Both the position numbers and the translations under genes were made by a program. From Sphingobium sp. WTD-1 (GTDB lineage Bacteria > Pseudomonadota > Alphaproteobacteria > Sphingomonadales > Sphingomonadaceae): a DNA stretch of 64,000 nt. Below are positions 28,101 to 64,000 of this stretch, piece by piece. How positions within the stretch are numbered: position 1 is the first letter of the stretch; each line of letters opens with the position of its first letter. Under the pieces are notes generated by a model, which had not been told where the DNA came from, searched no databases, and saw nothing but the letters and a program-made list of their open reading frames with translations. The DNA is taken from assembly GCF_030128825.1 (NCBI RefSeq), contig NZ_CP119127.1, positions 1,984,001 through 2,048,000 of the forward strand. Direction: 5' to 3'.

Positions 28101-28109
28101 CGTCCGCGC

Positions 28110-28907: not shown

Positions 28908-28920
28908 GTCTGAGAGCTCC

Positions 28921-35474: not shown

Positions 35475-35542
35475 GGCGCATGTCTCCTCGGGCGGCAGAG
35501 CCGTCCGGTCTGAAGATGATGAGAGCTTGGAGAGGGGCGCTG

Positions 35543-36340: not shown

Positions 36341-36344
36341 ATGA

Positions 36345-38303: not shown

Positions 38304-38311
38304 ATCCGCCC

Positions 38312-38707: not shown

Positions 38708-38710
38708 AGG

Positions 38711-43187: not shown

Positions 43188-43214
43188 GGGTGACCTCTTA
43201 TGGAAGGATTCTTT

Positions 43215-44823: not shown

Positions 44824-44837
44824 GTCAGGAGCCTCCT

Positions 44838-45248: not shown

Positions 45249-45250
45249 GA

Positions 45251-46921: not shown

Positions 46922-46923
46922 GA

Positions 46924-47187: not shown

Positions 47188-47277
47188 GACTTTCTCCTTT
47201 CGGGTCATCAGCGCGGGGGTGCGCCGATGATCGGAAAGGGGGTCCATCGGAATTACGATGGACCCACCTCCGTCAGG

Positions 47278-48534: not shown

Positions 48535-48546
48535 GGGAATATCCTT

Positions 48547-50621: not shown

Positions 50622-52441
50622 CAGGCGGCGCCTGCGAGCTGAGCTTTCAGGCGGGCGATCGTGTCGTCCAGGCTCTCCTGCTCTTCCGGCAGCATCTTCG
50701 GCGCGAGCGAATGCACGGTCGCATCAACGCCATCGATCTTGCTCATCGACATTGGCGTCTCCTTCTTCGGCAAGATCGAGCCATCGATACGGCGGTCAAC
50801 GACCGCATTGCCGACGCACCATGTCATCACCGGATTGTTGTCGTGGCGGAGCAAATGCGGGCCGCCGATCACACGGTTTTCTAAGTTGCGCGCCGGGTCG
50901 GTGACGTTCTTGGCGTTCTTGGGCAGGATGGAGGCGAAGCCGTTGCCATCGTCCAGATCGTCATTGAGCCTCACGGCCATCTCTTCCGCCGCGGCGAAAT
51001 GGTCGAACACCGCTTTGTTGACCCGCAGGACCGATTTCAGCCGGCGGATCAGGCGCTCGACACGCTTCTGATCGACCCAGTCGCCCGGCGTGAGGATCAG
51101 CTTTCCCTCTTTGTGCCACTGGCGATAGAGCGTCACATTGTTGCGGTCGCTCTGCCCTTCTCGGTTCAGCACCGCCTCAGGCAGGAAGAACCATGTCTTG
51201 AGCAGCAACTGATCGTCGGCGGTGACAGCGGAAAGCGCCACCGCAGTGAGATCGCTCTTGTGCGCAAGGTCGGCGCCGATGTCGCAATCCAGCCCGGCGA
51301 AGTCGCGGAGCCGGAGACTGCTATCGCCGCATGCGATCCACTGCGGCACGCTCAGCCAAGCTGTCGCGGCGGACATCCACCGATTCAGGCGCTTGGTGAA
51401 GAATTCGCCCTCCTCGCCCGGCGCGCCCTTCGCCTTCACAGCCAGCCGTCGCATTGATGCGAGGCTGGGCGTGATCGGCATCAGCGGGTTGGCTTTGGGC
51501 CAGTTCTTTTCGTCGTAGGGATCGTCCCCGACCTTCCGCTCCGGGGTGAAATCCTTGGGGCCATCCAAGGTGAAGATGATGCCGAAGACGTGATCCGCGA
51601 TCAGCGACCGCTCCAGCATCTTCGTCGTGAAGGTCCGTTGCTCGAAGCAGACGCCGTCCAAAATATAGCCGGCCGTCGTGATCTTCCAATAAAGCGGGTT
51701 GCGCCGGGCGCCGTCGGCGGAATGAACCACGTCGTAGAGGCCGCGATCCTTATGGGCGTGCAACTCGTCCAGAACCGCCAGGTGGGGATTGTGCCCGTCC
51801 TGCGTCGCGGACTTGGAATTGATGGTCTGGATCGTCCCGCCGTTCATGTCGCAGGTGATCGCCCGCGCCCACGCTTTCAGCGCGAAGGCTTCCTGAAGGT
51901 CCGGCGTCTTCTGCACCATCAGCTTGGCGGGGTTGAAAACCTTCTGCGCCTGGGCGCCGGTGGTCGCGCCGATCAGAACAAGCGGCCCCGGTTCGTCCTC
52001 GCAGCATGTGCAGTAGAGGACGACACCAGCAGTCAGCGTCGACTTGGCGCCCTTTCTCGCCATCTCGATATAGGTGTCGGTGAAGCGGCGCAGGCCGGTC
52101 GCCTTTTCCCGCCAGCCGAACACCATGGCGAGGATGAAAATCTGAGCCGGCTCAAGCGTCAGCGTCGGCGTTTCCCAGCGCCCCTCGACATGGGGCAGGC
52201 CTTCAATGAAATCGCAGACGTCGTTCGCATACCAAGGGTCGAACTTGTAAGGCCAGTCCTTCTGCTTCGATCGCTTCAGATCGTCCAGATGACGCTGGCC
52301 CGCCAGGCGGACCCATTTGCAGTGATGGACCTGTTGCTTGTCTGCCGCCGCGCGCTTGGCATAGGCAAGCGCGATAGCGGCAAAGTCACGACCGGTTTCC
52401 GGCGCCGTTGCGGGCGAAGCGATTTGCTGGCTTCGCGCCAT
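50621..52441 (-). CDS. Terminase large subunit
   Basis: 606 residues from ATG 52441 with GGAGGTG upstream; a TTG four codons earlier is less likely. ATPase with Walker A ARKGAKSTLTA and Walker B LAVLDELHAH; nuclease region with GLDCDIGADLAHKSDLTAVA. Packages DNA through the portal. The start lies inside the small subunit gene (about 56 bases overlap). Confidence 0.95.
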   Translation of the reverse strand: MARSQQIASPATAPETGRDFAAIALAYAKRAAADKQQVHHCKWVRLAGQRHLDDLKRSKQKDWPYKFDPWYANDVCDFIEGLPHVEGRWETPTLTLEPAQIFILAMVFGWREKATGLRRFTDTYIEMARKGAKSTLTAGVVLYCTCCEDEPGPLVLIGATTGAQAQKVFNPAKLMVQKTPDLQEAFALKAWARAITCDMNGGTIQTINSKSATQDGHNPHLAVLDELHAHKDRGLYDVVHSADGARRNPLYWKITTAGYILDGVCFEQRTFTTKMLERSLIADHVFGIIFTLDGPKDFTPERKVGDDPYDEKNWPKANPLMPITPSLASMRRLAVKAKGAPGEEGEFFTKRLNRWMSAATAWLSVPQWIACGDSSLRLRDFAGLDCDIGADLAHKSDLTAVALSAVTADDQLLLKTWFFLPEAVLNREGQSDRNNVTLYRQWHKEGKLILTPGDWVDQKRVERLIRRLKSVLRVNKAVFDHFAAAEEMAVRLNDDLDDGNGFASILPKNAKNVTDPARNLENRVIGGPHLLRHDNNPVMTWCVGNAVVDRRIDGSILPKKETPMSMSKIDGVDATVHSLAPKMLPEEQESLDDTIARLKAQLAGAA

Positions 52442-52805
52442 TCCCACCTCCAACGCCGATCCGGCTCTTCGGACCGGCGATGCGCAACAGTTCTTCCATC
52501 TGGCGCAGGTTCGTCAGGTAGGCGGCTGAGGGCAGCTCTCCGCCCGACGCAAAGGCCACGCGCACTTCCGCTTCGAGCGAGCAATAGCGGGCGAACAGCG
52601 CGCTGTCGGCTTCCGTGATTCCGGCCGCCATGACGCGGCCAATTACCTCCTGCCAGACCTCGATCGCGCCAGCCGTCAGATAGTCCGGCTGGATCGGCGG
52701 GTCGCCGGGGACGATGATCTCTGTCTTGACGCCGTCGCGCACTGGCTGGAATGTGCCGCGCGCCAGTTTCGTGCTGGGCGTCTCCGCCTTCGGTCCGCGC
52801 TTCAT
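52386..52805 (-). CDS. Terminase small subunit (P27 family)
   Basis: 139 residues: MKRGPKAETPSTKLARGTFQ, WQEVIGRVMAAGITEADSAL, LRQMEELLRIAGPKSRIG, the P27 pattern. Recognises the packaging site, which may be the tandem repeats just upstream. Confidence 0.92.
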   Translation of the reverse strand: MKRGPKAETPSTKLARGTFQPVRDGVKTEIIVPGDPPIQPDYLTAGAIEVWQEVIGRVMAAGITEADSALFARYCSLEAEVRVAFASGGELPSAAYLTNLRQMEELLRIAGPKSRIGVGGGNGAKPANRFARNGAGNRS

Positions 52806-52818
52806 CGCCGGGCCTCCT

Positions 52819-52870
52819 GAAAATTAATCGGCACGCAAATTTAATTCGCACCGAAATTTTAATCTGCACG
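52819..52870. repeat. Three degenerate 17-18-base tandem repeats upstream of terminase
   Basis: Units beginning at 52819, 52836 and 52853 share an AAATTTTAAT-like core and a GCACG-like end, in an AT-rich island inside GC-rich DNA just before the terminase small subunit gene. Location and spacing fit terminase binding sites of a cos/pac region. Confidence 0.5.
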
Positions 52871-52932
52871 CGCAGAAAAAAGGCTCCACGCTCGGTCCCT
52901 GGCGGAGAGCCGGTGGACTTTGCCACCGCCCC

Positions 52933-53649
52933 CTACCTATGGACCCATCGGCGGGCCGGGTGGGCGTCGTCGCGGGTCAATCCATCACCCTTTTCAATGT
53001 TGCAGCGCCGGTGCGCACAGGCAACGTTGCTTTCGATGTGGCGACCGCCGCGGGACAGGGGTATGACGTGGTCGATCTCAGGGGCCTCCGCAGCGAATGT
53101 CCCGCGCAGTTCACGCGGGGCATCGCCGCCGCAGATGTGACACCGCCATCCATCGCGCTCCATGATCCGGATCGGATTGATGCTCGCGGGTGCTGCGTCT
53201 CCATAATCGCGGGCTCGCTCCTTGCCCTTTGCTGCCCGCTTATGATGCCTGGCCTTGCACGTATCCGAACAGAAGGCTCGACGCTTGTCTCCATACTCGG
53301 CAGTGAACAGGCGCTGGCACTCACCGCATGAACGCTCAGGCTTTGGCCCTTTCCGCATTTTATCGTGGTGCTGGCCTGAGCAGTGAGGGCTGCAATATTT
53401 CGCCGAAGGCTGAGCCTCGAATGCCACATTGCAGTTCAGGCACACATGCTGCCGTGCCGCGTGGCGCTGCGCCTGGATGAGTGCGGTACGCTGCTCACTG
53501 GCAGCTTGCCTGTCCCTGCGAAGGACCTCGAAGCCACAGGCCCGAGAACAGCAGCGATTGCTATCCTTGTTGCCGCGGCGACGGGGAGCAAAGGTTGAGC
53601 CGCAGCACTCGCATACGCAGGTGCTATCGGCTATAGCGGGTGAAGCCAT
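52933..53649 (-). CDS. HNH endonuclease with three N-terminal zinc-finger-like motifs
   Basis: 238 residues. Three successive Cys motifs: CECCGSTF...CCSRAC, CLNCNVAF...CSPHC and CGECQRLF...CSDTC (about 12-135), then an HNH nuclease with CHICGG, IDHVIPLSRGG and NVACAHRRCNIEKGD (about 165-225). HNH genes beside terminase assist cos cleavage in HK97-like phages. The triple finger array is unusual for that role. Confidence 0.85.
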   Translation of the reverse strand: MASPAIADSTCVCECCGSTFAPRRRGNKDSNRCCSRACGFEVLRRDRQAASEQRTALIQAQRHAARQHVCLNCNVAFEAQPSAKYCSPHCSGQHHDKMRKGPKPERSCGECQRLFTAEYGDKRRAFCSDTCKARHHKRAAKGKERARDYGDAAPASINPIRIMERDGWRCHICGGDAPRELRGTFAAEAPEIDHVIPLSRGGRHIESNVACAHRRCNIEKGDGLTRDDAHPARRWVHR

Positions 53650-53720
53650 AGCGATCCTCCCGTGATCGACTGGGGTGAGGCCCGGTCAAGTGTGTCACCA
53701 CTTGGTCGGGCCGAATTCAT

Positions 53721-54077
53721 TTAATCCAGAGGCCAGCCGTCTGGCGCAATGATCCGGCGCAGGCGCGGCGGCCGGGCGCCACGGGCGCGGGCCGCTTCCT
53801 CTGCTGTCTTGACGTCATGACAGGGCTTGCAGATGCCCTGATAGTTTTCACGCTCGCCTGTGCCGCCTTCGCTCAGCGGCTTGATATGATCGGCTATGGT
53901 CGCCGGGGTGATGCGCCCGCGTGCCTGGCATGGCCGGCACAGCGGCTCCTCCCTCAGCACGATCTCGCGCATGCGATCATGCTCGCGCCCATATCCGCGC
54001 TCATGCCTGCTCTTGCGGGTGCTGGCCCATGCCTTGGCCCGGGGCTTCTGCTTGAGGCTAGGCGGGCGGCTGGGCAT
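53721..54077 (-). CDS. HNH endonuclease (packaging-associated)
   Basis: 118 residues: very basic N-terminus, then YGREHDRMREIVLREEPLCR, CQARGR, ADHIKPLSEGGTG, NYQGICKPCHDVKT, a standard HNH domain. Like HK97 gp74, likely aids terminase. Start overlaps the stop of the small membrane protein gene (TGATG). Confidence 0.9.
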   Translation of the reverse strand: MPSRPPSLKQKPRAKAWASTRKSRHERGYGREHDRMREIVLREEPLCRPCQARGRITPATIADHIKPLSEGGTGERENYQGICKPCHDVKTAEEAARARGARPPRLRRIIAPDGWPLD

Positions 54078-54238
54078 CAGCGCGTCGGGCGGGGCGGAGG
54101 CGGTGCTCCGGGTGGCGGGGGCGGCGGCACCTTCGGTTGATGGACGCCATAACCGCCCCGCTGGCGTGGCGCGCCGCTATCGGCGATGACTAGGGCGGCG
54201 ATGATAATCGCGATGGCGAGGAGGGTGCAGTCGCTCAT
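54077..54238 (-). CDS. Small proline-rich membrane protein
   Basis: 53 residues from ATG 54238 (MSDCTLLAIAIIIAALVIAD) with one membrane helix and a polyproline tail (VPPPPPPGAPPPPRPTR). Stop overlaps the HNH start. First gene after the tRNAs in the late direction. Function unknown. Confidence 0.55.
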   Translation of the reverse strand: MSDCTLLAIAIIIAALVIADSGAPRQRGGYGVHQPKVPPPPPPGAPPPPRPTR

Positions 54239-54251
54239 CACGCCTCCGAAC

Positions 54252-54328
54252 TGGTTGCCACAGCGGGATTTGAACCCGCGACCTTCAGCTTATGAGGCTG
54301 ACGAGCTACCGGACTGCTCTATGCGGCT
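54252..54328 (-). tRNA. Phage-borne tRNA with CAT anticodon (Met or Ile2 type)
   Basis: 77 bases including an encoded CCA. D-arm GAGC/GCTC, anticodon stem TCAGC/GCTGA with loop CTCATAA, T-arm GCGGG/CCCGC with TTCAAAT. Acceptor pairs well except an A-A mismatch at 1-72. It lacks the three G-C anticodon-stem pairs of initiator tRNA, so elongator Met or lysidine-Ile are the options. Confidence 0.88.
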
Positions 54329-54329
54329 A

Positions 54330-54404
54330 TGGTGCTAGGAGAGGGAGTTGAACTCTCAACCGACCGCTTACAAGGCGGCTGCTCTACCGTTGAGCTACCC
54401 CAGC
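54330..54404 (-). tRNA. Phage-borne tRNA-Thr (anticodon TGT)
   Basis: 75 bases with encoded CCA. Acceptor GCTGGGG/TCCTAGC, D-arm GCTC/GAGC, anticodon stem GCCGC/GCGGT with loop CTTGTAA, T-arm with one A-C mismatch. One base separates it from the CAT tRNA, so both come from one transcript. Confidence 0.9.
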
Positions 54405-54446
54405 GATTTGTTATTCTGGCTCAGCAACGACTCAGCGGGAGGTGTT

Positions 54447-54623
54447 ATGAGCACACCGGATGACGTGAATTATCTGTTGCGGCGTGCGCAGCAGGAGGCT
54501 CGCAAAGCCAGAGAAGCCCTACAGAGGGGCGACCACATGATGGCCGTTTATGCCCATCGCGAACTGGCCACCCGATACGAGGCAGCTGCCGCCTGCATCG
54601 CTAGGGAATTAACGAAGCACTGA
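54447..54623 (+). CDS. Small helical protein on the plus strand, unknown
   Basis: 58 residues from ATG 54447 with GGGAGG upstream. Wholly helical and charged (DVNYLLRRAQQEARKAREAL, YAHRELATRYEAAAACI). It faces the tRNAs and the early operon terminator. Could be a separately expressed prophage gene. Confidence 0.6.
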   Translation: MSTPDDVNYLLRRAQQEARKAREALQRGDHMMAVYAHRELATRYEAAAACIARELTKH

Positions 54624-54627
54624 CACG

Positions 54628-54656
54628 AAAAAAGACCCACGCTGCGCACGTGGACC
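54628..54656 (-). terminator. Intrinsic terminator of the leftward early operon
   Basis: On the minus strand GGTCCACG pairs with CGTGGGTC (two wobbles) around a 7-base loop, followed by six T. It lies 67 bases after the last early gene and before the tRNAs. On the plus strand GGACC...GGTCC (54652-54676) then TTTTTT at 54683 may end the small plus-strand gene. Confidence 0.7.
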
Positions 54657-54722
54657 TTCTCCGGACACAATGGTCCTAGGGCTTTTTTGGGACATTTCGG
54701 GGCCACTTGCAAGCGGAAATCG

Positions 54723-55718
54723 TCATGCAGCCTCCTCTTCCTCACACCAGCCGAACCGGGCACGAATGATGTCGGCGATATCCGCCCAGTCCTTGAGGAT
54801 GCCGCGCTCGTCGAGGAACTCGGGGTCGATATCGCGGGGATCGGCATATGCGATATCTGCCTCAGCCTCCTCGATCGCCGCGACATGCTCGGTGTCGATC
54901 ACTGGCCTTGCCGCTCGGGATGGCCCGTCCAGCCAGACGGGATCGCAGGGCTGTCCAGCATTCAGCGCCGCAATGGTGTCGCGGTCGGCGACCGAGAACG
55001 CATGGGCGACGCACAGCGGCCACCGGTTGAGCGCTTCGATCAGGAAGCGCTTGGCCTTGCGTTTATGGACCCGATAGCGGCCAGCCGCGACCGAATAGCC
55101 GATCGCGTCGCCCACGATCATATCCAGCACCAACTGCTTGGGCATGGGCAGCATGTCGCGCCAATAGCCGTATGCCAGATGCAGCCGCACGCGCAGCACG
55201 CCTTCCGCCGCCCGGCCACCGCCCCGCGACTGGTCGACGCGCGCCTCAAGGCTGGCGACCTTGATGCCGACGTCCGCCTCCAGGCTGCGATAGACGTTCG
55301 CGATCTGGGCCGCCCATTCGAGCTGGTCTTTGTCGATCGTGCCATTGCGATGCAGCTGGATGAGCGCGCCGTCATGCGTGCTGGTCGAGCGCTCCCATGT
55401 CTCGGGCGTCCCGTAGGCCTTGTGGTTCCACGCCTCCCGGATCTGCACGGCCTCTTCAATGCCGGGCTCCAGACGCATGGGCCGGTCCACCATCTTTGGC
55501 TTGCGTCGTCCGGTGCGCTTGCCCTCCATCACACGCTCGACCGGACGCGGATGCCCGAGCACCAGATGCTCGATCCGCTGCTGTTCGCGCTTTCGCGCCG
55601 ACGCCAGCCGCGCCATGCGGGCATTGAACCGCTCGACGCCGGCCGGGTCTGCCGCATAGGCCGCCGCCAGATCGGCACGAGCCTTCGCGATCCGTTCTGC
55701 CCTTGTCATCGCACTCAC
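54723..55718 (-). CDS. Phage early-operon end protein, unknown (late-regulator candidate)
   Basis: 331 residues, GTG start at 55718 coupled to the previous stop (GTGA); ATG at 55709 is an alternative. N-terminal half charged (RAERIAKARADLAAAYAADP), middle helical (WAAQIANVYRSLEADVGIKV), then RYRVHKRKAKRFLIEALNRW. No known domain recognised. Being the last early gene, just before a terminator and the late genes, it occupies the slot of lambda Q; that is positional inference. Confidence 0.65.
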   Translation of the reverse strand: MSAMTRAERIAKARADLAAAYAADPAGVERFNARMARLASARKREQQRIEHLVLGHPRPVERVMEGKRTGRRKPKMVDRPMRLEPGIEEAVQIREAWNHKAYGTPETWERSTSTHDGALIQLHRNGTIDKDQLEWAAQIANVYRSLEADVGIKVASLEARVDQSRGGGRAAEGVLRVRLHLAYGYWRDMLPMPKQLVLDMIVGDAIGYSVAAGRYRVHKRKAKRFLIEALNRWPLCVAHAFSVADRDTIAALNAGQPCDPVWLDGPSRAARPVIDTEHVAAIEEAEADIAYADPRDIDPEFLDERGILKDWADIADIIRARFGWCEEEEAA

Positions 55719-55882
55719 CGCCTCAACCTCCCAATATCGTCAATCACGTCATCGATGCGCTCGACGGCCTCGCGTCGCATCTCGGCCGCCAGCGTCGGCA
55801 TGGCGCCGTTCATTCCTTTGATCAGCAGCTTCACCGCGCTCAGCGAGGCGACGATGTCGGCGGGCGTGGGACGGCGGCTCAT
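55715..55882 (-). CDS. Small helical protein, unknown
   Basis: 55 residues from ATG 55882 (MSRRPTPADIVASLSAVKLL...), helical with ERIDDVIDDIGRLRR at the end. Overlaps both neighbours by four bases, which supports translation. Confidence 0.6.
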   Translation of the reverse strand: MSRRPTPADIVASLSAVKLLIKGMNGAMPTLAAEMRREAVERIDDVIDDIGRLRR

Positions 55883-56127
55883 GGCATGAACCTCGCTGCC
55901 GGACCGCGCGAGCGCCCGCCCAGCCGGTCCCGTAGCGCCGCCTCATCAGCATCGGACAGGTAGCGGGACGGTTGCGTCTCGACCTCGTCAGCCATCCGCT
56001 CGCCCCAGATCTCCAGCCGCAGCGCCCGATATCGCCCCGCATAGATGACGGAGGCGAATGCCACGCCGCTGCATATGCCAGCCGCAAAGACCAGAACGAG
56101 GGCGACGGTTAGGGTCCAGTCGGTCAT
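55879..56127 (-). CDS. Small single-pass membrane protein
   Basis: 82 residues. One membrane helix at the N-terminus (WTLTVALVLVFAAGICSGVA) and a charged cytosolic tail. Four-base overlaps with the primase gene and the next gene. Function unknown. Confidence 0.65.
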   Translation of the reverse strand: MTDWTLTVALVLVFAAGICSGVAFASVIYAGRYRALRLEIWGERMADEVETQPSRYLSDADEAALRDRLGGRSRGPAARFMP

Positions 56128-57035
56128 TCAACATCCGCCCAATCTGTGCCGGGCTCAGGCGGAATATCCACCGAGACGGCAATGTGATCATTTTTGATGG
56201 CCATGCGGTTCGCCAACGCGAAGGCGGCGAGCTGGCCGGTGTAATTCAGGTCGTTGTCGCCGAATATGCGAAGCCGCTTCACGATCGGCGGCGGCGTGAA
56301 GGCCCTTAGACCGTCAGCGTTGATCAGCGACCACACCGGAACGCCGAAGCGCTGCTGCGCCCGCAATGCCGTCTCGATGCCCTCCGCTACGCCCATTTCC
56401 TCGGCCGCCGGCGACAGCTCAATGAAACTGCCGTGTGGGGTTTTTCCGGGCATCATCTTGCGCGAGCCGCCGTTCAGCTCGGCCTTTCGCCCTGCCGCCA
56501 AGTAAGTCCGGTGTAGCGTCAGCGGTTCCCCAAGCGGATCACGGACCATAGCGATCATGGCCGCGAGATGATCAACGGGCGCGCCAGTGACCTTGAGCTT
56601 CGGGATGAAGCGCAGAGCCGGACTGAACGGCGGATCGATGCGGCGCGACATCAGGTATCGTCCCGCATCGTCGGTCTCGGCAACAGGCGCACTCTGTCGC
56701 CACATTTCCCGCAGGATCTCGACCCGGCGCTCGTCCGACATTGCTCGAGGTGGGCGGCGCTGCTCAGCGTCCGGCGCAACCTCCCGGATCATATCGGCGG
56801 CTTCACGGAACGTTTTTCCATGAACCCGCATCACCAAATCGACACCGTTACCGGCCCCGCAGGCGTTGCAGTAGAACGTCCCACGCCCGTCCTTGTCATC
56901 GAAGCGGAAGCGATCCTTTCCGCCGCAAGCAGGGCATTTCGTGTGTTTGCCGGTCAGGAACTGGGGCGATATTCCTAGTCGCGGCAAGATGGCGTGCCAG
57001 CGATTGACGCATTGCTCTGAAATGCCCGTCATCAT
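56124..57035 (-). CDS. Phage primase with zinc ribbon and Toprim domain
   Basis: 303 residues from ATG 57035 (MMTGISEQC...). Zinc ribbon CPACGGKDRFRFDDKDGRGT then FYCNACGAG (about 35-65), and a Toprim-3 domain with MGVAEGIETALRAQQRF, INADGLRAF and RIFGDNDLN (about 210-280). Primes phage DNA synthesis together with the upstream helicase. Confidence 0.88.
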   Translation of the reverse strand: MMTGISEQCVNRWHAILPRLGISPQFLTGKHTKCPACGGKDRFRFDDKDGRGTFYCNACGAGNGVDLVMRVHGKTFREAADMIREVAPDAEQRRPPRAMSDERRVEILREMWRQSAPVAETDDAGRYLMSRRIDPPFSPALRFIPKLKVTGAPVDHLAAMIAMVRDPLGEPLTLHRTYLAAGRKAELNGGSRKMMPGKTPHGSFIELSPAAEEMGVAEGIETALRAQQRFGVPVWSLINADGLRAFTPPPIVKRLRIFGDNDLNYTGQLAAFALANRMAIKNDHIAVSVDIPPEPGTDWADVE

Positions 57036-58501
57036 GCCGCCCTGCTTTTTGCGTAGCGGATCTGCTGAGAGCGCACATAGGATCGAACTTCCGGCCCGGC
57101 GATTTCCATGGCCGCCCGATTGAGCTGGTTGGGCCAGACGCCGAACTTGCTGCGATACTGCTGGGAGGCCCACCCGGATTTATATCCGCGCTCCATGGCG
57201 AGATAGTTCAACTCCGCCAGCCACCGTTGCTTGTCGACCATAGTTGATTTCGCCCTCTTGGCCTTGCCCGGCGTGACTTCGACCAGCTCGCCATCCTCTT
57301 CCTCGATCTCGGATTGAGCGTTCGGCGTGAAACCGCAGACCGGACATTCCCGCACCTTGGGCGGCTTGATGAACCCGCAGCCTGGGGCGGAACATTCCTT
57401 GGGTAGCGCCTCTCTGCGCTCCGATGCCCCCCGTTCGCCGCGCTTGCCGGTGTCCAACTCGCCACGGCTAAGGTCGGTCACGAAACCCATGCGCAGCGTG
57501 TTGTCGGCGTGATCGAGGATGATGCAGTCGGGCATCGGCGGGTTAACTCGCAGGCCACGCCCAACCATCTGGACGTAGAGCATTTCCGAGCGGGTTGGAC
57601 GCGCCAGGATGACGCACCCGATCGCCCAATCAACGCCCTTCGTCAGGCATCCGATGTTGCAGACGACCTTGATTTCGCCCGCGTCGAGCTTGCGCCGGAT
57701 CGCATGGCGCTCACTGGCGGGCGTGTCCTTGTCGATGTACCCGGCCGGGATGCCCGCGTCCTCGAATCGCAGCTGAACCTGTTTGGCGTGAGCCCGATCG
57801 ACGCAGAAGCACAGGGTCGGGCGATTTTCCCCAAGCCGTGCCCATGTCGATACGATGTCCGCGATCAGTTGCCCATCGTTCATAGCGTCGGCGAGCTGGC
57901 CCTCGTGATAATCACCCCGCACGATCTTTACGCCTGACAGGTCAGGATGGTCGGCAGCGAAAACACGGAACGGGCAAAGATACTCGCGGTCGATCAGTTC
58001 CTGCATCCGCACCGGGGCGATTAGCTTCTGGTAGACGTTGCCCATGCCCTTTGCCCACGGCGTGGCGCTCAGGCCGATGAACGGAACCTTCTCCCATTCG
58101 GGCGAGGCCATCGTCTCGGTCATGAACTTGTACATGCAATGCGCTTCGTCGATGATGACGAGGTCGACTTGCGGCATGCCCCGGTTCTGCAGGGTCTGCA
58201 CCGAAGCGACCTGAACCGGACGCGACCAGTCAGTCATCGGGTGGTTCGCCTGGATCACGCCGATTTCGCAGATGCCTTCGGCGTAGAAGGCCTGCACGCT
58301 CTGGTCGATCAGCGAGATAGCATCGACCACGAACAGGACGCGGTTCCCTTTTTCCCTAGCCATGCGGATTATAGCCGCAGCGATCACGGTCTTTCCCGCG
58401 CCGGTTGGCAGGTCGAGCACCAGCCGCTTGATGCGTTCCCGCCCGATGGCCTCGCGGAGCATAGCGACGGCGCCGGTCTGGTGGGGGCGAAGCTCCTTCA
58501 T
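57032..58501 (-). CDS. SF2 DEAD/DEAH-box helicase
   Basis: 489 residues from ATG 58501 (MKELRPHQTGAVAMLREAIG); an ATG at 58531 is possible. Motif I LDLPTGAGKTVIAAA, motif II VDLVIIDEAHCM, motif III GLSATPWAKG, and the C-terminal helicase half with LYVQMVGRGLRV. A Cys4 zinc motif (CSAPGCGF...CPVCGF) precedes a helical tail. Likely unwinds the phage origin. Stop overlaps the primase start. Confidence 0.92.
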   Translation of the reverse strand: MKELRPHQTGAVAMLREAIGRERIKRLVLDLPTGAGKTVIAAAIIRMAREKGNRVLFVVDAISLIDQSVQAFYAEGICEIGVIQANHPMTDWSRPVQVASVQTLQNRGMPQVDLVIIDEAHCMYKFMTETMASPEWEKVPFIGLSATPWAKGMGNVYQKLIAPVRMQELIDREYLCPFRVFAADHPDLSGVKIVRGDYHEGQLADAMNDGQLIADIVSTWARLGENRPTLCFCVDRAHAKQVQLRFEDAGIPAGYIDKDTPASERHAIRRKLDAGEIKVVCNIGCLTKGVDWAIGCVILARPTRSEMLYVQMVGRGLRVNPPMPDCIILDHADNTLRMGFVTDLSRGELDTGKRGERGASERREALPKECSAPGCGFIKPPKVRECPVCGFTPNAQSEIEEEDGELVEVTPGKAKRAKSTMVDKQRWLAELNYLAMERGYKSGWASQQYRSKFGVWPNQLNRAAMEIAGPEVRSYVRSQQIRYAKSRAA

Positions 58502-58534
58502 GCCGAAGCCCTCGCGTGCGTGCGTGCGCATACG

Positions 58535-58555
58535 CGTAGGTAGTTCTCTCCTACG
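58535..58555. repeat. Short inverted repeat at the helicase leader
   Basis: CGTAGG (58535-58540) and CCTACG (58550-58555) around a 9-base loop, next to a GCGT microrepeat. Might shape translation of the helicase. Further right lies (CTCCATC)x3 at 58590-58610. Confidence 0.35.
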
Positions 58556-58630
58556 TAGGTCGCCCTACTGGCTAGGTTCTTTCTTCTACCTCCATCCTCC
58601 ATCCTCCATCTGGCGGAAGATTTCCCCATC

Positions 58631-58825
58631 GGTTCCGAACTGGTGGGGAAATGGTTCCGAACTGGCGGGGAACCAGTGGGGAAACGAGCGTCCTTAAGCA
58701 TCGGAAGGTTCTCCACCGTTGCGAGTTGAGCGCGCCCCAGTGTTTACCCAGTTCCGAACTTCGGATGTCTGAGGGTATAGCGAGTTCGGCTTTTTAGGGC
58801 GTTGAAACTGTTGGAAGTTCCGAAC
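58631..58825. repeat. Iteron-like GTTCCGAAC repeats (candidate phage origin)
   Basis: GTTCCGAAC occurs at 58632, 58654, 58751 and 58817. The first two are in exact 20-base repeats (GGTTCCGAACTGG.GGGGAA) with a 22-base period, about two helical turns. Two lie inside the O-like gene and two just beyond its stop, echoing lambda ori inside gene O. Confidence 0.6.
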
Positions 58826-59080
58826 CGCTCCGTAATTACGATCTAATATTTCGTATCGCATCACACAGCCAGCTTCGGCGAGTTCTTCTAGAAGCGAGGC
58901 AGGATCGACATTGTCGATCGGCATCAGCCTCATCTTTATCTTAAGCGGCGCCCATTCGAACGATCCCTGATCATCGCATTCATTCCAAATGCCAATGAAT
59001 AGCAGGCGGGCGAAAGGTGACAGGGAGACGAACCGCTCGTCTGTCCATAGGCCGGGATGGACCGATCGTATGCGGCTCAC
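58694..59080 (-). CDS. Phage replication initiator-like protein (O-like), possibly C-terminally truncated
   Basis: 128 residues: MSRIRSVHPGLWTDERFVSL, FARLLFIGIWNECDDQGSFE, VRNFQQFQRPKKPNSLYPQT. This is the DnaD/O-type N-terminal domain of sphingomonad and other phages. Relatives usually continue into a longer disordered tail; here the frame stops at 58694, and the following DNA in other frames still reads like that tail, hinting at a frameshift. Overlaps the upstream gene by four bases. Confidence 0.75.
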   Translation of the reverse strand: MSRIRSVHPGLWTDERFVSLSPFARLLFIGIWNECDDQGSFEWAPLKIKMRLMPIDNVDPASLLEELAEAGCVMRYEILDRNYGAVRNFQQFQRPKKPNSLYPQTSEVRNWVNTGARSTRNGGEPSDA

Positions 59081-59379
59081 TTGCGCACCCGCCCAGTCCG
59101 ATATTTCGGCTCAATAAAGTTCGGTTCGGCAAATTTGAGCTGGTAGAGATTTTTCCCGTTCCCAGCCCGGGAAATACGCCCCAAGTATCCGTCATATTCG
59201 AGATCGTTGAGCGCCCTCAGGATCGCGCTGCGAGACGCTTTCGTCCTCGCAACGAGGCTCGAAAGACTATGGTCTGGATCATGGCTAAGGCAGGCTAGAA
59301 CAGCCGTTTCCACCTTGTCGGTGCGGCGAGTGGCGAAGGCTACCGCCATTGCGCTCAGCGCTTGGGTTTCGTCTCGCAT
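59077..59379 (-). CDS. Winged-helix DNA-binding protein
   Basis: 100 residues from ATG 59379 (MRDETQALSAMAVAFATRRT). Core VETAVLACLSHDPDHSLSSL, VARTKASRSAILRALNDLEY, GYLGRISRAGNGKNLYQL is a clear winged helix. Second gene of the leftward early operon; probable replication or expression regulator. Confidence 0.78.
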   Translation of the reverse strand: MRDETQALSAMAVAFATRRTDKVETAVLACLSHDPDHSLSSLVARTKASRSAILRALNDLEYDGYLGRISRAGNGKNLYQLKFAEPNFIEPKYRTGRVRK

Positions 59380-59384
59380 CGGCG

Positions 59385-59591
59385 TTACTCCGCCTCGGCG
59401 AGATATGCAAGAGCTTCCGGGGGAAGCGTCTTGCCGCGTCTCCGAGCCATCTCCAGAAGGGGCGGACGGCGCCAACGTGGGATCGCCCCCTTTGCTTTCC
59501 AAGAATGGACTGTTTGGACAGGAAAGCCGGTGTCAGAAGCGATGGCGGTCGAGCCTCCAAGCGCCTTGAAAATAAGCAGCGTGACATTCAT
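59385..59591 (-). CDS. Cro-like regulator
   Basis: 68 residues: IFKALGGSTAIASDTGFPVQ, TVHSWKAKGAIPRWRRPPLL is a Cro/CII-like helix-turn-helix (carph-isopro type). First gene left of the repressor, transcribed divergently from it. The -10 box of its predicted promoter is only about 7 bases from the ATG, so the mRNA may be leaderless. Confidence 0.82.
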   Translation of the reverse strand: MNVTLLIFKALGGSTAIASDTGFPVQTVHSWKAKGAIPRWRRPPLLEMARRRGKTLPPEALAYLAEAE

Positions 59592-59597
59592 GCCGCT

Positions 59598-59625
59598 AAA
59601 ATATCCGATAAGCGGATTTTGTAAA
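59598..59625 (-). promoter_or_regulatory. Leftward early promoter with operator
   Basis: On the minus strand TTTACA (59625-59620), 16 bases, TATTTT (59603-59598). The imperfect dyad ATCCG-ATAAG-CGGAT (59603-59617) fills the spacer. The 11-base motif ATCGGATATTT is shared with the rightward promoter at 60290. Repressor binding here would block the Cro-like operon. Confidence 0.6.
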
Positions 59626-59672
59626 TGCCTCGTTATCTTTTTATCGAAATAGGCTGCAAATTAATCTTTCGG

Positions 59673-59678
59673 TATAGC
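59673..59678 (+). promoter_or_regulatory. -10 box for the repressor gene
   Basis: TATAGC ends 7 bases before ATG 59685 and there is no Shine-Dalgarno sequence, so the repressor mRNA is probably leaderless, like lambda cI from PRM. No strong -35 is seen, consistent with activation. Confidence 0.4.
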
Positions 59679-59684
59679 GAAGCC

Positions 59685-60263
59685 ATGAGCAATCACCTCT
59701 CTCCCCAAGAACTGCTGGCCCAACTCAAAGAGACGGGCGTTACCCAGAAGGATATTGCAAACTTCCTGGGCATTCCGCAGTCCGCCGTCTCTAACATCTC
59801 CCGCGGGCTGCGACGTATGCAGCATGACGAGTATGCGAGGTTGAGCAATCTCTTAAGGGGAAGCACGAAGCCCCGGACGCTCGAAATACCAATCATCGGG
59901 CTAAGCGGAGCCGGGCAATGGGTCGAGGCTATCGAGCAAGCCGATAATTTCCTTACGCTTCCCAGCGTCATAGGCAGCAACGAACTTCGGGCGTCATTCG
60001 CGGTCGAGGTTGTCGGTGACAGCATGGATCAGATCATGCCCGAAGGGACCTTTGCTGTGGTCGACACGGGGCAGGTCGACCTGTTTAGCAGCGCTTGTTA
60101 TCTGCTCATGAACCCGGAGGGAGAGGCCACGATCAAGCGCTATCGTAGCGATCCTGCACGATTTGAGCCTGTATCCAGCAATCCCGAGTACAAGCCGTTC
60201 AATGTAGGAACGACGGATTTCCGCGTTATCGGGAGAGTTGTGTACGCCCTCAGAAAATTCTGA
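59685..60263 (+). CDS. CI/LexA-like phage repressor with S24 domain
   Basis: 192 residues from ATG 59685 (MSNHLSPQELLAQLKETGVT). XRE helix-turn-helix (about 8-55, QKDIANFLGIPQSAVSNISR) and S24 peptidase-like domain with VEVVGDSMDQIMPEGTFAVV (nucleophile Ser) and the Lys region EGEATIKRYRSD. RecA-stimulated self-cleavage would induce the prophage. Divergent from the Cro-like gene. Confidence 0.93.
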   Translation: MSNHLSPQELLAQLKETGVTQKDIANFLGIPQSAVSNISRGLRRMQHDEYARLSNLLRGSTKPRTLEIPIIGLSGAGQWVEAIEQADNFLTLPSVIGSNELRASFAVEVVGDSMDQIMPEGTFAVVDTGQVDLFSSACYLLMNPEGEATIKRYRSDPARFEPVSSNPEYKPFNVGTTDFRVIGRVVYALRKF

Positions 60264-60273
60264 AAAACATATA

Positions 60274-60301
60274 TTGACGAATTCTTAAAATCGGATATTT
60301 C
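60274..60301 (+). promoter_or_regulatory. Rightward early promoter with operator
   Basis: TTGACG (60274-60279), 16 bases, TATTTC (60296-60301). ATCGGATATTT (60290-60300) overlaps the -10 and is the same 11-mer as in the leftward operator. It would drive the GcrA-HNH gene and the operon behind it. Confidence 0.55.
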
Positions 60302-60385
60302 TGCCTTCATCACCTGATCGCTGCGGCGAAAAGGATTCAGGCAGGAGCAATAAAGCTTTCCTGCCCTTGAGACAGGGAAACCGTC

Positions 60386-60952
60386 ATGGCGAGAGCCGAA
60401 CAAGGGTGGTCATCAGAATCTGTCGCCGCTCTTGGCGCGCTCTGGGACGCTGGCGTGCCGACCATGGAGATTGCCCGCCGGCTGGGCCGAACGCGAAGTT
60501 GCATATTGGGTAAATCTCGTCGCATCGGTCTTAGGCCACGTCATGAAATGACGGCGGCTCAAGCGGCTTCGATGGCAGAAGTTGGGGCGTTTATAGGACG
60601 CCCCGGGCAGATCATGTTTCGTCGCAACATGCTCGAAAACTACAACTTTTGCTGCCCAATTACCGGATGCTCAATTGAGCAGGTATTGCAGGCTGCCCAT
60701 GTTATCCCCTTTGGAAGAGGCGGTAGTTTCGAAATCTCCAACGGAATTGTCCTGCGCGCTGACCTTCATGCGATGTTTGACGCTGGGTTGATGGCAATTT
60801 CTCCTACAGATTTTACTATCCTCTGGTCGCCGAGAGTTGCTGACTTCGACTACACTAGGCTCAAGCGCGCGGCGTTTGAACGGGTGGAGCATCTTCCCTC
60901 TTGTGAGGGACTAACCTGGCATATCCGAAATGTCTTTCGCGCTTCCGGTTGA
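60386..60952 (+). CDS. GcrA-like DNA-binding domain fused to an HNH endonuclease
   Basis: 188 residues. Residues 8-52 match the GcrA DNA-binding domain (WSSESVAALGALWDAGVPTM, EIARRLGRTRSCILGKSRRI, GL). Residues 88-145 form an HNH_2 nuclease: CCPITGC, AAHVIPFGRGG (His105), SNG (Asn119), RADLHAMFDAG (His128). GcrA in alphaproteobacteria senses GANTC methylation by CcrM; whether this copy does is unknown. First gene of the rightward early operon under repressor control. Could be a methylation-linked nuclease, host take-over factor or exclusion factor. Confidence 0.82.
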   Translation: MARAEQGWSSESVAALGALWDAGVPTMEIARRLGRTRSCILGKSRRIGLRPRHEMTAAQAASMAEVGAFIGRPGQIMFRRNMLENYNFCCPITGCSIEQVLQAAHVIPFGRGGSFEISNGIVLRADLHAMFDAGLMAISPTDFTILWSPRVADFDYTRLKRAAFERVEHLPSCEGLTWHIRNVFRASG

Positions 60953-60998
60953 GGCGTCTGATCCACTTCAAATTCTAATTCCTTAGGGAGCATTCCAC

Positions 60999-61490
60999 AT
61001 GGCCGACGCCACCCAGGCGCGGAGCGACGACGCTTCGCGGAACGAAGAACTGCGCCAATCTGACATCGTCACGCTGTGTGGCCTGATCGGCAGCGCTGAC
61101 CGTTACTGCACGGCCGCCGAGCACGAGCAGTCCCGCAGCTTCTACGGCTTCAAGTCGATCTATCAGAAGTCCTACGACGCCCTTTGCGAAGGGCATCTGA
61201 AGATGCTGCAGGCCATCCCCGATGGCTCTGACCGGGATATCTTGATCTTGGCTGCACACGCCTCACTGATGGGTGACCAGATCCAGAGTCTGGATGTTGG
61301 CAACGACACCTATGCCGCCCGCCTTCTGGAGGGCCTCAACGCCGCCCTGATCAGCATCGCCGGATCGATCGGCAATCGCTTCCCCGAGCATGTCGAGGAA
61401 GTCGCCACCCTTTGGCCCGAGCTTGGCCAGTCCATTCGGAACGACATGGCGGTCGCCCGTCAGATGATTTCCGAAATGGAGGGCCGCTGA
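60999..61490 (+). CDS. Hypothetical helical phage early protein
   Basis: 163 residues, mostly helical (DIVTLCGLIGSADRYCTAAE, YQKSYDALCEGHLKMLQAIP). GGGAG upstream. No known domain recognised. One base separates its stop from the next gene. Confidence 0.65.
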   Translation: MADATQARSDDASRNEELRQSDIVTLCGLIGSADRYCTAAEHEQSRSFYGFKSIYQKSYDALCEGHLKMLQAIPDGSDRDILILAAHASLMGDQIQSLDVGNDTYAARLLEGLNAALISIAGSIGNRFPEHVEEVATLWPELGQSIRNDMAVARQMISEMEGR

Positions 61491-61491
61491 C

Positions 61492-61767
61492 ATGGCCGCG
61501 CCCGCAACCACCAACGCGTTCGGCGACACGCCTGACGCCCCGCTCTTCTACGCGAAGACGCTCATTTCGTTCATGTCTGCCGCATGGCTGGCCGAAGACC
61601 AGTTCCAGCGCGACGGTATGGCCGGATCGAAATCGACCGAATTTGCGGCCCTGATGCCTCGTGTCCACGCCGATGTTCTCGAGATCATCGGAGGGCTGAT
61701 CACGGTCGCCGGCGAGCTCGACGCGGTCGAGCGCTACGGGAGCAAAGAAGCGGGCGTTCAGCCGTGA
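61492..61767 (+). CDS. Hypothetical small phage early protein
   Basis: 91 residues, helical (TLISFMSAAWLAEDQFQRDG, MPRVHADVLEIIGGLITVAG). Stop overlaps the next GTG start. Function unknown. Confidence 0.65.
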   Translation: MAAPATTNAFGDTPDAPLFYAKTLISFMSAAWLAEDQFQRDGMAGSKSTEFAALMPRVHADVLEIIGGLITVAGELDAVERYGSKEAGVQP

Positions 61768-61931
61768 GCCGCCTCCGGCAGATCATCGCCACGATCGAGC
61801 CTTGGTATGACTGGGGCACGTGGGGCGCTGAATCCCTCAATGGCGGCTGGGGCGACGGCTGGCGGTTCCAGTTCGAGTGGTTCGGCTGCCAGATCCTCAT
61901 CGCTTTCACCCGCTTCCCGAAGGAGAAGTGA
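61764..61931 (+). CDS. Small tryptophan-rich phage protein
   Basis: 55 residues, GTG start overlapping the previous stop (GTGA). Rich in aromatic residues (IEPWYDWGTWGAESLNGGWG, then WRFQFEWFGCQIL). Function unknown. Confidence 0.55.
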   Translation: MSRLRQIIATIEPWYDWGTWGAESLNGGWGDGWRFQFEWFGCQILIAFTRFPKEK

Positions 61932-61932
61932 C

Positions 61933-62619
61933 ATGGCCACCCGCCGTGAAATCCTTGCTGCGGCCATCGCCGCGCCCGCTCTTGCCGCTCCGGCCGTCGC
62001 CTGCGCAGCGCCCACATTCGCATGCCTCCCGATGGCGGTAAGCCCGCAATGGCAGGATGCTATTGCCCGGATGGATGCCGCCAGCGCCGCCTATGACGCC
62101 TACTACGACGCGACCTATGAACCGGCATGGGAGGCTGCCAAGGAATTGGCCAGCCGGCCAGACGAGCAACTGCAGCGTCGGCTGGATGCGATCCCCCATT
62201 ACACGACGTCGCTGGCCCACGAGACGGCCGATGGCAATCTCGCACATATGACAACGGCCAACAGGCTCGACATCGGGCGCGCCATCGGGGGCGCTCAACT
62301 CACGGACCTGAGCGATTATGTGTCCTGCTGCCGCGAGATGGTCAGCCTGATCAACAAGCGCATGGATGAACAAGATAGGGTCAAGGCTGAGTTCGATCAG
62401 CCCAAGATCTACCCGGCGCAACTGATCTCGCCCGAGATCGCTCGAGAAGAAAAACGCCTTGAAGACGCGTCGCATGCGGCCTTCAAGGCCGTCTACAACT
62501 TCGCTGCCGCCACGCCGGCCGATCTCATCGCCAAGATCGAATTCCTGAAAGCTCGGGATATCGACATCGACCACGACCAGATGCTGGCGGATCTCCGCCG
62601 CGTGTTCGGGGAGGCCTGA
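61933..62619 (+). CDS. Hypothetical exported phage protein (Tat/Sec-like signal)
   Basis: 228 residues from ATG 61933. N-terminus TRREILAAAIAAPALAAPAV is a signal peptide with a Tat-like RRE motif, cleaved near ACA. The rest is helical (DAASAAYDAYYDATYEPAWE ... YPAQLISPEIAREEKRLEDA). An exported protein among early phage genes is unusual. No known domain. Confidence 0.6.
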   Translation: MATRREILAAAIAAPALAAPAVACAAPTFACLPMAVSPQWQDAIARMDAASAAYDAYYDATYEPAWEAAKELASRPDEQLQRRLDAIPHYTTSLAHETADGNLAHMTTANRLDIGRAIGGAQLTDLSDYVSCCREMVSLINKRMDEQDRVKAEFDQPKIYPAQLISPEIAREEKRLEDASHAAFKAVYNFAAATPADLIAKIEFLKARDIDIDHDQMLADLRRVFGEA

Positions 62620-62622
62620 GCC

Positions 62623-62958
62623 ATGGGCGAACAGATCACGGATCAGGGCCAGGCGTTTATCGCTGCTTGGGACCGCTTTGCTTCCGCTGCCTGGGAAACG
62701 CGTGGCGATCTCCCCAGCAGCGAACAGTCTCGCGCCGATGAAAACTTGTTGTCGATCGGCATCAGCGACGATCCGGCGGCGGTAGCGAAGAAACTGCGTT
62801 ACGCGATGTATCTGAGGGCGCAAAGCCCTTGGCTCGAAGCCGCGGCGCTCGGCGCCGTAGTGCCGGACATGGCGGAACGCCTCATAAAGGACGACACGAT
62901 CAATGAAGCGATCTGGTCGGCCATCGTAAGCCTCGAAGCGATGGAGGCACGGCCATGA
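62623..62958 (+). CDS. Hypothetical phage early protein
   Basis: 111 residues, helical (QAFIAAWDRFASAAWETRGD, AVAKKLRYAMYLRAQSPWLE). Stop overlaps the next start by four bases. Unknown. Confidence 0.62.
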   Translation: MGEQITDQGQAFIAAWDRFASAAWETRGDLPSSEQSRADENLLSIGISDDPAAVAKKLRYAMYLRAQSPWLEAAALGAVVPDMAERLIKDDTINEAIWSAIVSLEAMEARP

Positions 62959-63272
62959 GCATCCATCGCCTTCCAACGGCCGCGCCGCGTAAAGTCCATC
63001 AGCCTAGCATCCGCGCCGTGCGCCAGTTCAAGGCCGCAAATCCTTGGCCCGGTGAACATAAGCTGCCTCATGAACGCGAGGCCGTATCGTTGGTCGCCCA
63101 GGCTGGGCGGTCCCCAGAACTGCTGATCCTGCTCGCCATGATGAAGGTGATGGCGCCGGAGCAGCGACAGGCGGTGCAGGACGCCGTTCACCGCATCCAC
63201 TTCGCTGCCGGTGATGACGTCTCCCTGCTCGCGTCGAGCTTGATCGCGGGCATCGGGAGGGACGGTCAATGA
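62955..63272 (+). CDS. Hypothetical phage early protein
   Basis: 105 residues: basic N-terminus, helical C-terminus (LILLAMMKVMAPEQRQAVQD). Coupled by ATGA to both neighbours. Unknown. Confidence 0.62.
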   Translation: MSIHRLPTAAPRKVHQPSIRAVRQFKAANPWPGEHKLPHEREAVSLVAQAGRSPELLILLAMMKVMAPEQRQAVQDAVHRIHFAAGDDVSLLASSLIAGIGRDGQ

Positions 63273-63487
63273 GCACCTGTCTCCGCTGCGTCCACTTCCT
63301 CCAGGGCGGAGTGAACCCCAGCAGCATGTCGCCCGGTCATGCCGAGCGGGCCGACGACGTCGGCCTGTGCCGGCGATACCCGCCACGCTGGGCGCAGGAC
63401 ACTACCGACGACGGCGGTTCCTTCGACTTCCCCGCCATCCATCAGGATCATCGCTGCGGCGAGTTTCAGCCAAGGATTTCGATATGA
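63269..63487 (+). CDS. Four-Cys zinc-ribbon-like microprotein (first of a pair)
   Basis: 72 residues with CLRCVHF, GLCRRYPP and HRCGEFQP, a four-Cys pattern fit for one zinc. The same pattern recurs in the next gene, so the two are probably paralogues. Confidence 0.65.
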   Translation: MSTCLRCVHFLQGGVNPSSMSPGHAERADDVGLCRRYPPRWAQDTTDDGGSFDFPAIHQDHRCGEFQPRISI

Positions 63488-63813
63488 CTGACGTCCGCAA
63501 TTGCTCGACCTGCATCTATTGGCGAGCCGGCGCCAGCACCGACATGACCATGGCCGCCCGTGACGAAAGCTACGAGGACGTGGGCGCTTGCGAGAACTTC
63601 GCGCCGATGATCTACATCATCAACGAAGGCCCGGTGTCACTCCAGCCGACGACGCATGCCACGCGCTGCTGCGCGGAATGGCAACCGATCTGGGGCGGCG
63701 ACGGCCCGGATGATGATCCCGACGAGGAGCCGGCGCCCAAGCCCACTCCCGAACCGGACCGCGACAAGGTCCGCCGCCTTTTCCCCAATCCTCCCCGGCC
63801 GATCGCCGCATGA
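63484..63813 (+). CDS. Four-Cys zinc-ribbon-like protein (second of a pair) with acidic tail
   Basis: 109 residues from ATG 63484, overlapping the previous stop. CSTCIYW, GACENFAP and RCCAEWQP mirror the preceding protein; an Asp/Glu/Pro-rich tail follows. Function unknown. Confidence 0.65.
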   Translation: MTDVRNCSTCIYWRAGASTDMTMAARDESYEDVGACENFAPMIYIINEGPVSLQPTTHATRCCAEWQPIWGGDGPDDDPDEEPAPKPTPEPDRDKVRRLFPNPPRPIAA

Positions 63814-63827
63814 AGGAGCGTGGTCCC

Positions 63828-64000
63828 ATGACTTCCACCGATGCCAAGCGGAATTATACCGCCGAAGAGACGACGGCCTATGAGGCCTATCTGAGCGCGG
63901 TTGCTGAGCACAATATCACCTGCGCCCGCTCCGGCGCCACTACGCGCGAGAAGATGGACGCGGCATTTTCTGCCGATGCCGCATGGAAGCGCTTTTGCGA
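63828..64000 (+). CDS. Small phage early gene, cut by window end
   Basis: ATG 63828 with GAAGGAG upstream; 57 codons are visible (MTSTDAKRNYTAEETTAYEA ...). Helical, unknown. The operon continues past the window. Confidence 0.5.
   Translation, partial: MTSTDAKRNYTAEETTAYEAYLSAVAEHNITCARSGATTREKMDAAFSADAAWKRFC

Follow-up and report, generated by a model that had tools for sequence, protein, structure and literature searches.

Introduction

Among modification-dependent enzymes is VcaM4I, which has been described as a restriction endonuclease. In enzymes that combine a DNA reader with a nuclease, the reader finds the mark and the nuclease, whose domains pair, cuts at a distance from it with little sequence preference (PMC11037411, PMC6212794). 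The catalytic roles have been assigned in TagI, where the first histidine activates water, the second binds the metal and Asp258 seemingly serves as a further ligand; mutants demonstrate that the histidine, asparagine and histidine of the motif, as well as Asp258, are required for activity (PMC6212794). A virus-encoded enzyme, HhiV4I, is found among the wH-HNH endonucleases, which comprise proteins of 224-283 aa expected to read N6-methyladenine (m6A), and the number of domains known to read this DNA modification is considered surprisingly small (PMC11037411). Neither GcrA nor GANTC nor CcrM is mentioned in the main text of that article.

GcrA is itself a reader of m6A that recognises promoter DNA in its methylated form through residues 1-45, its DNA-binding domain (PMC7403470). 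Fully methylated GANTC probes are bound best by the GcrA proteins of Caulobacter, Brucella and Sinorhizobium (PMC3667746). Both phages with GcrA homologues and phages with CcrM analogues are known (PMC9437464).

Here, we describe a gene that joins a GcrA-type domain to an HNH nuclease in a stretch of 64,000 nucleotides from Sphingobium sp. WTD-1 (the window). A sequence-only reading had proposed this fusion, had placed the gene at the head of the rightward early operon of a phage and had considered a methylation-guided phage nuclease to be new. These proposals are examined below by domain and structure searches, comparison of related regions and analysis of the control region.

Results

Domain architecture

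The fusion of a GcrA-type domain to an HNH_2 nuclease in a single open reading frame is real, and the frame lies where the sequence-only reading had placed it (Table 1). Both exceed the Pfam-A cut-offs, GcrA (PF07750) with 35.0 bits versus 26.9 (E 2.4e-8) and HNH_2 (PF13391) with 45.5 bits versus 21 (E 6.9e-12). An AlphaFold2 model computed from an alignment of 44 rows is confident in both domains (mean pLDDT 89, pTM 0.62), weakening around aa 51-70, where block means fall to 63 and 55; the linker between the domains spans approximately 20 residues.

Table 1. Positions of the fusion gene, its domains and the surrounding prophage features in the window
Feature	Position	Strand	Basis
Prophage part in the window	25939..64000	.	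Phage genes, integrase, tRNA, 14-bp copy of the tRNA end at 25939
Small divergent gene in Cro position, carph-isopro domain	59385..59591	-	NF046037, E 2.9e-13
Palindromic putative operator between Cro-position gene and repressor	59599..59619	.	Overlaps minus-strand promoter-like site
Repressor, Peptidase S24 domain	59625..60263	+	PF00717, E 4.9e-17; likely start ATG 59685
Putative early promoter: -35-like TTGACG (60274-60279), overlapped by operator-like half copy (60280-60300)	60274..60300	+	
5' leader homologous to early-operon leader of related prophages	60300..60385	+	Alignment with 7 related regions
Gene for GcrA-type domain and HNH_2 nuclease	60386..60952	+	188 aa, ATG to stop; Pfam and structure model
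GcrA DNA-binding domain, aa 8-63	60407..60574	+	PF07750, 35.0 bits; 5yiu, E 1.3e-4
HNH_2 core, aa 90-138	60653..60799	+	PF13391, 45.5 bits; 41 relatives; Foldseek VcaM4I/TagI
Codons of H105, N119, H128 and D132	60698-60700, 60740-60742, 60767-60769, 60779-60781	+	
Next early gene, no assigned function	60999..61490	+	Directly after repressor and leader in relatives
Remaining rightward early genes, several small	61492..63487	+	ORFs; no Pfam match at 0.01

The GcrA-type reader

The solved structure closest in sequence is the DNA-binding domain of Caulobacter GcrA (5yiu), and the Pfam assignment places the N-terminal domain in a family whose members include readers of modified DNA. When a leave-one-out GcrA-domain profile built from 11 other GcrA-type domain sequences was run against the 722 ORFs of the window, the fusion protein was the sole match (64.1 bits, E 3e-19); this profile is not fully independent, because its sequences came from searches with the window protein, whereas the Pfam result is. 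The NCBIfam GcrA equivalog model matches aa 7-53 with 25 bits versus a cut-off of 280. Searched against phages, residues 1-55 obtained their best, albeit weak, E-values (3e-3 and 4e-3) with phage cell-cycle regulator (GcrA) proteins of Brevundimonas phages.

The framework positions of the GcrA family are retained: in 55 other GcrA-type rows, W8 and G34 are found in 100%, I29 and G42 in 96%, W20 in 95%, R46 in 94%, G48 in 91% and K43 in 85%. The recognition helix is atypical. S38 is shared by 4%, and C39, S44 and R45 by 0%, of 53-54 other GcrA-type domains, in which the usual residues are N at position 38 (87%), A at 39 (80%) and H at 45 (83%); the typical N, A, V/A, H pattern is thus not that of the window protein. 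With a changed recognition helix, the DNA site of the fusion cannot be deduced from GcrA, and its methyl preference may differ. Judging from these residues, the reader is GcrA-derived yet altered.

The PF07750 match stops at profile position 60 of 155 (profile 3-60), so that the sigma-interacting half of GcrA is missing. A motif taken as the mark of this half is absent from the window protein and present in 45 of the 56 domain rows; the 10 other GcrA-type rows that also miss it are mostly viral. Lacking the sigma-interacting half, the fusion protein can hardly work as a sigma cofactor. The reader is modelled by AlphaFold2 as helices only (residues 10-21, 26-33 and 37-46), and no winged-helix domain was named by Pfam in the protein.

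The HNH_2 nuclease

The HNH residues, which had been described as intact-looking, are present at the proposed positions and conserved in homologues: in 41 aligned relatives, H105, H128 and D132 are each found in 41 and N119 in 36, the remaining five having H (four) or R (one). By numbering, the N-H-D spacing of the fusion (119-128-132) equals that of TagI (245-254-258), and D132 matches by this spacing the extra metal ligand of TagI. In a Foldseek search of the AlphaFold2 model against the PDB, VcaM4I occupies ranks 1 and 2 (E 1.2e-4 and 1.9e-4, TM about 0.45-0.47 by query length) and TagI rank 3 (E 1.0e-3), with EcoKMcrA (0.17) and ScoMcrA (0.5 and up) lower down and Cas9 HNH domains mixed in from rank 4. 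Among viral models, the highest ranks are taken by HNH proteins from giant viruses and from Salmonella phage SE131, eight matches having an E of up to 0.001.

Two HNH models of PADLOC, both of restriction type, match the protein (E 9.3e-13 and 1.2e-8), and the NCBIfam models that match, all far below their cut-offs, include one for a phosphorothioate-DNA restriction endonuclease (aa 77-185) and IscB. For HNH_3, Pfam gave no match to the window protein up to E 1. In a scan of 42 proteins, HNH_2 was found in all 42 and GcrA in the window protein only, the other families being DUF3427 (3 proteins), DUF7669 (3), MTaX1 (2) and DUF7662 (1). Across these proteins, a constant HNH_2 nuclease is combined with a variable N-terminal half, which points to a modular group. 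The fusion protein is very probably active as a nuclease.

Occurrence of the fusion

The protein was searched against overlapping genome sets (100 relatives, and 385, 396 and 398 genomes of the class, order and phylum, respectively). Among the matches listed, few reach, by query range, beyond the reader into the linker or the HNH domain; for the class, order and phylum, listing was restricted to matches below 1e-9 or 1e-12, with at most 30 loci read per search, so that diverged fusions may be missed. In L041 and L047 the match is a short GcrA protein standing alone, L165 (match at aa 23-156) has the HNH domain only, and the open frames that contain two further such matches among the 100 relatives measure no more than 98 and 138 aa. 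Fourteen phage records contain a match, two of them covering 80% of the query with identical alignments, and the one of these that was examined is devoid of a GcrA domain. The same holds for the sole match covering 80% (Mesorhizobium) among those listed for plasmids, where 40 of the 1,804 matching records were listed and six examined. IMG/VR yielded 63 HNH loci and 11 GcrA-type loci. With the whole protein as the query, no relative was found in viral contigs, and genome contigs contained one relative with the HNH domain only.

When 253 loci were pooled, some of them duplicates, 123 ORFs with this HNH domain and 60 with a GcrA-type domain were counted at a profile E of up to 1, the window gene contributing four copies to both totals; the two domains occur together in the window gene alone. 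The fusion is therefore a single example in these 253 loci, without a homologous fusion showing selection on both halves.

A second kind of GcrA-like/HNH fusion was encountered in viral sequence, at L127 (L127:1989-2600), where HNH_3 is joined to a helix-turn-helix that resembles GcrA but stays below the cut-off (17.4 bits). L127 is matched by 192 phage records, 91 of which cover 80% of it or more. Scored against a GcrA profile, the N-terminus of L127 reaches 32.1 bits, those of five L127-like phage records (from six taken out of the 91) at most 8.6, and that of the window protein 67.0; with a profile of six HNH_3-linked N-termini, the window reader obtains 13.4 bits.

Two longer frames also contain GcrA-type domains, one of 492 aa at its C-terminus (L020, 1492-1665) and one of 519 aa on a viral contig in its interior (L125). 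The genome that carries the fusion gene additionally encodes a 432-aa protein (L114, region of C1:3575370-3575516) with up to six GcrA-like helix-turn-helix stretches, mostly weak.

Prophage and the slot occupied by the fusion gene

The fusion gene lies in a prophage whose minus-strand genes include those for terminase, portal, major head protein, tape measure, tail fibre, endolysin, primase and helicase. The prophage extends past the window to a tRNA-Ser gene near 68.6 kb, with the integrase at about 67112-68470, and from the copy of the tRNA end at its other side its length is estimated at about 42.6 kb. As had been proposed, the fusion gene is the first gene rightward of the repressor and heads the rightward early operon, and the region in front of it aligns with the leader of related prophages.

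Homologues of the next early gene were found in seven other regions, namely in six other genomes of the 94 in the genus and in a sibling prophage. In all seven, an ORF resembling a helix-turn-helix repressor, judged so from its sequence and not from a domain search, is directly followed by the next-gene homologue, with gaps of 139-179 nt, and 122 nt upstream of the fusion gene align with the leader of these relatives. Three IMG/VR contigs (L221, L222 and L223) carry a 19-base string of this leader. In L221, which there looks identical to L149, and in L223 the leader runs straight into a next-gene homologue identified by tblastn; in L222 it runs into an ORF that, by eye, resembles the next gene in the first residues only. 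The bases just 5' of the next gene in the window resemble those of L145. Hence, the slot filled here is empty in nine related regions (the seven, L221 and L223) and, by eye, in a tenth (L222), which indicates that the fusion gene is accessory. Occupancy of a site empty in relatives fits a homing endonuclease and is equally expected of any cargo gene. The GC3 of the fusion gene (0.54) compared with that of the next two genes (0.79) suggests a fairly recent arrival; the repressor has a GC3 of 0.64. An origin of the two halves from different sources found no support in base composition, the GC3 of the halves being 0.545 and 0.556 (permutation p 0.61).

A separate HNH protein is encoded beside the terminase gene (window 52933-53649, minus strand), which makes a role of the fusion in packaging unlikely; the neighbouring ORF (53721-54077, minus strand) is also HNH-like by eye. 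Genes for tRNA-Met and tRNA-Thr are adjacent to each other in the prophage (54252-54404, minus strand). The sibling prophage of the same genome (L175/L176, C1:1700410-1735409), compared with window 39969-52453, has terminase, portal and head proteins that are 100% identical and a tape measure that is 93-97% identical, has a different repressor and is without the GcrA-HNH gene.

Control region and leader

Besides its Peptidase S24 domain, the repressor matches a lexA-like model below the cut-off (E 3.3e-10). The operator-like sequence AATATCCGAT occurs exactly only at 59600 and 60290 in the 64 kb and, with one mismatch, six times versus 2.8 expected; looser patterns occur twice versus 0.15 expected and three times (two overlapping) versus 0.30 expected, all of these patterns having been drawn from the candidate sites themselves. 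Compared with 60 local shuffles, the similarity between the left and right operators is rare in L145 (1/60) and in L148 and L149 (0/60), borderline in L150 (8%) and not beyond the shuffles in the present window (20% reach it), L146, L147 and L151. TTGAC is found in the gap between the repressor and the early gene in six of eight regions. A sigma-70 scan of 7 kb detected one site (2.2 expected), directed leftward over the left palindrome, and no rightward promoter. By its layout, the fusion gene is likely to be controlled by the repressor.

The leader has conserved stretches common to L145-L151 and L221-L223, and its folding (60300-60385) has a z of -1.5. Rfam reported no family over threshold in it, one match being at chance level (E 0.69). 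The shared leader might be a regulatory RNA or an antitermination site. A GANTC in the leader (60334) was considered as an autoregulatory site and rejected, being not conserved in the aligned relatives. A 14-base string of the leader was likewise discarded as a marker of prophages in the genus, given that no more than two (L230 and L235) of 30 loci examined represent this leader.

Host methylase and GANTC sites

The host encodes a CcrM-type methylase (E 4.4e-185, 614.5 bits to the Caulobacter CcrM model, below the strict cut-off of 830) and a full GcrA. The window contains 72 GANTC sites versus 332.6 expected, and 33 lie in 41.5 kb of the prophage. The observed/expected ratio is 0.20 in the prophage and 0.41 and 0.32 in its two flanks; three parts of the prophage give 0.18, 0.19 and 0.28 (second order), and the 735 nt with the fusion gene give 0.57 (2 sites). 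Ratios of 0.17-0.31 were obtained in eight stretches beside related early genes, seven of which have a phage-gene match, and 0.15-0.39 in eight stretches of the host. Special avoidance of GANTC by the prophage was therefore rejected, as sibling prophages without the gene and host stretches are depleted alike. Since GANTC is no rarer in this prophage than in its siblings and the host, self-cutting is not visibly avoided and no purge of sites can be traced to the fusion gene.

Discussion

Proposed function and alternatives

Our preferred explanation, held tentatively and at somewhat less than even chances, is that the gene encodes a two-domain reader-plus-HNH endonuclease that is repressed in the lysogen, expressed early and aimed at GANTC-like sites. 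The fusion gene would be accessory cargo of a temperate phage, and its product would be built as modification-dependent restriction enzymes are, with an N-terminal DNA reader connected through a flexible linker to a C-terminal HNH domain of the VcaM4I/TagI type. In this scheme, of which we infer the activity, the repression and the kind of site, the GcrA-type helix-turn-helix most likely directs the enzyme to sites resembling GANTC, and the HNH domains would pair and cut near the bound site. In the lysogen, the repressor would cover the promoter and keep the gene silent, with expression following early after induction or infection. Such gating by a repressor fits an enzyme harmful to a CcrM-positive host. 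The methyl-dependence, the target DNA and the sparing of the phage itself are speculative parts of the scheme: the reader might prefer N6-methylated GANTC made by the host CcrM, the enzyme might nick or break fully methylated parental DNA of the host or of a rival, and newly copied phage DNA might outrun CcrM. The strongest form of the proposal, in which the protein would be the first nuclease to read the CcrM mark, cutting N6-methylated GANTC in the DNA of the host or a rival prophage and sparing its own unmethylated copies, we regard as rather unlikely.

Distinctly less probable than our preferred explanation is a free-standing helix-turn-helix-HNH endonuclease of selfish or homing-like spread, which would read plain sequence and for which methylation would be irrelevant. 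In its favour, the fusion gene sits alone in an intergenic slot that stands empty in the related regions and differs in GC3 from the next genes; the union of a GcrA-like helix-turn-helix with HNH_3 in L127, with its numerous phage matches, and the giant-virus and Salmonella phage HNH proteins at the top of the viral Foldseek search speak for it as well. The nuclease here, however, is HNH_2 rather than HNH_3, its best folds in the PDB are restriction enzymes, and the reader is far closer to GcrA than to the HNH_3-linked N-termini, while the five phage N-termini scored come nowhere near the GcrA profile.

A much smaller chance is given to the opposite preference, by which unmethylated GANTC-like sites would be cut, CcrM would protect the cell and incoming unmethylated rival DNA would be restricted. 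Host CcrM would then shield both host and prophage, the altered recognition helix permits an altered preference, and the PADLOC models that match are of restriction type; but the GcrA proteins tested bind methylated GANTC better (PMC3667746), the gene appears from its layout to be silent in the lysogen, just when rivals would have to be excluded, and rivals arriving from CcrM hosts would presumably be methylated too. Least probable of all is a decoy regulator whose GcrA-type domain would sit on the GcrA sites of the host and alter its cell-cycle transcription, with a secondary or weak nuclease, since the HNH positions, which a decoy would not need, are all kept, even though the sigma-interacting part is missing and stand-alone GcrA homologues exist in some alphaproteobacterial phages (PMC9437464).

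If the preferred reading of a GANTC-directed endonuclease extends to the methyl mark, the protein would provide a tool for mapping CcrM methylation and would exemplify a phage strategy that turns a cell-cycle mark of the host into a target. A natural GcrA-nuclease fusion makes a possible role of GcrA as a portable reader of m6A in GANTC testable by cleavage. Were the enzyme blind to methylation, the DNA-binding domain of a cell-cycle regulator would still have been recruited as the guide of a nuclease.

Comparison with known systems

The expectation that a methylation-guided nuclease of this kind would be new holds in part. The plan of a reader joined to an HNH nuclease is already known, and m6A-guided wH-HNH enzymes have been published (PMC11037411), but neither a GcrA-type reader nor any GcrA-nuclease fusion was found in the openly accessible published papers searched. 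Like the fusion, the wH-HNH m6A endonucleases carry a reader of helix-turn-helix type and an HNH domain in one chain; in them a GATC-specific winged helix does the reading (PMC11037411), whereas the reader of the fusion is GcrA-type. TagI, VcaM4I, EcoKMcrA and ScoMcrA share with the fusion the reader-plus-nuclease build and supply the best matches to its HNH fold, but the marks read by these SRA-HNH and related enzymes are modifications of cytosine or of sulphur type (PMC6212794, PMC6224610). The L127-type phage proteins also combine an N-terminal helix-turn-helix with a C-terminal HNH in about 200 aa; they differ in belonging to the HNH_3 family and, as a group, in N-termini far from the reader of the fusion. 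With the GcrA regulator, finally, the fusion has in common the DNA-binding framework of W8, W20, G34, G42, K43, R46 and G48, and it departs from that regulator in the loss of the sigma-interacting half, the changed recognition helix and the addition of a nuclease.
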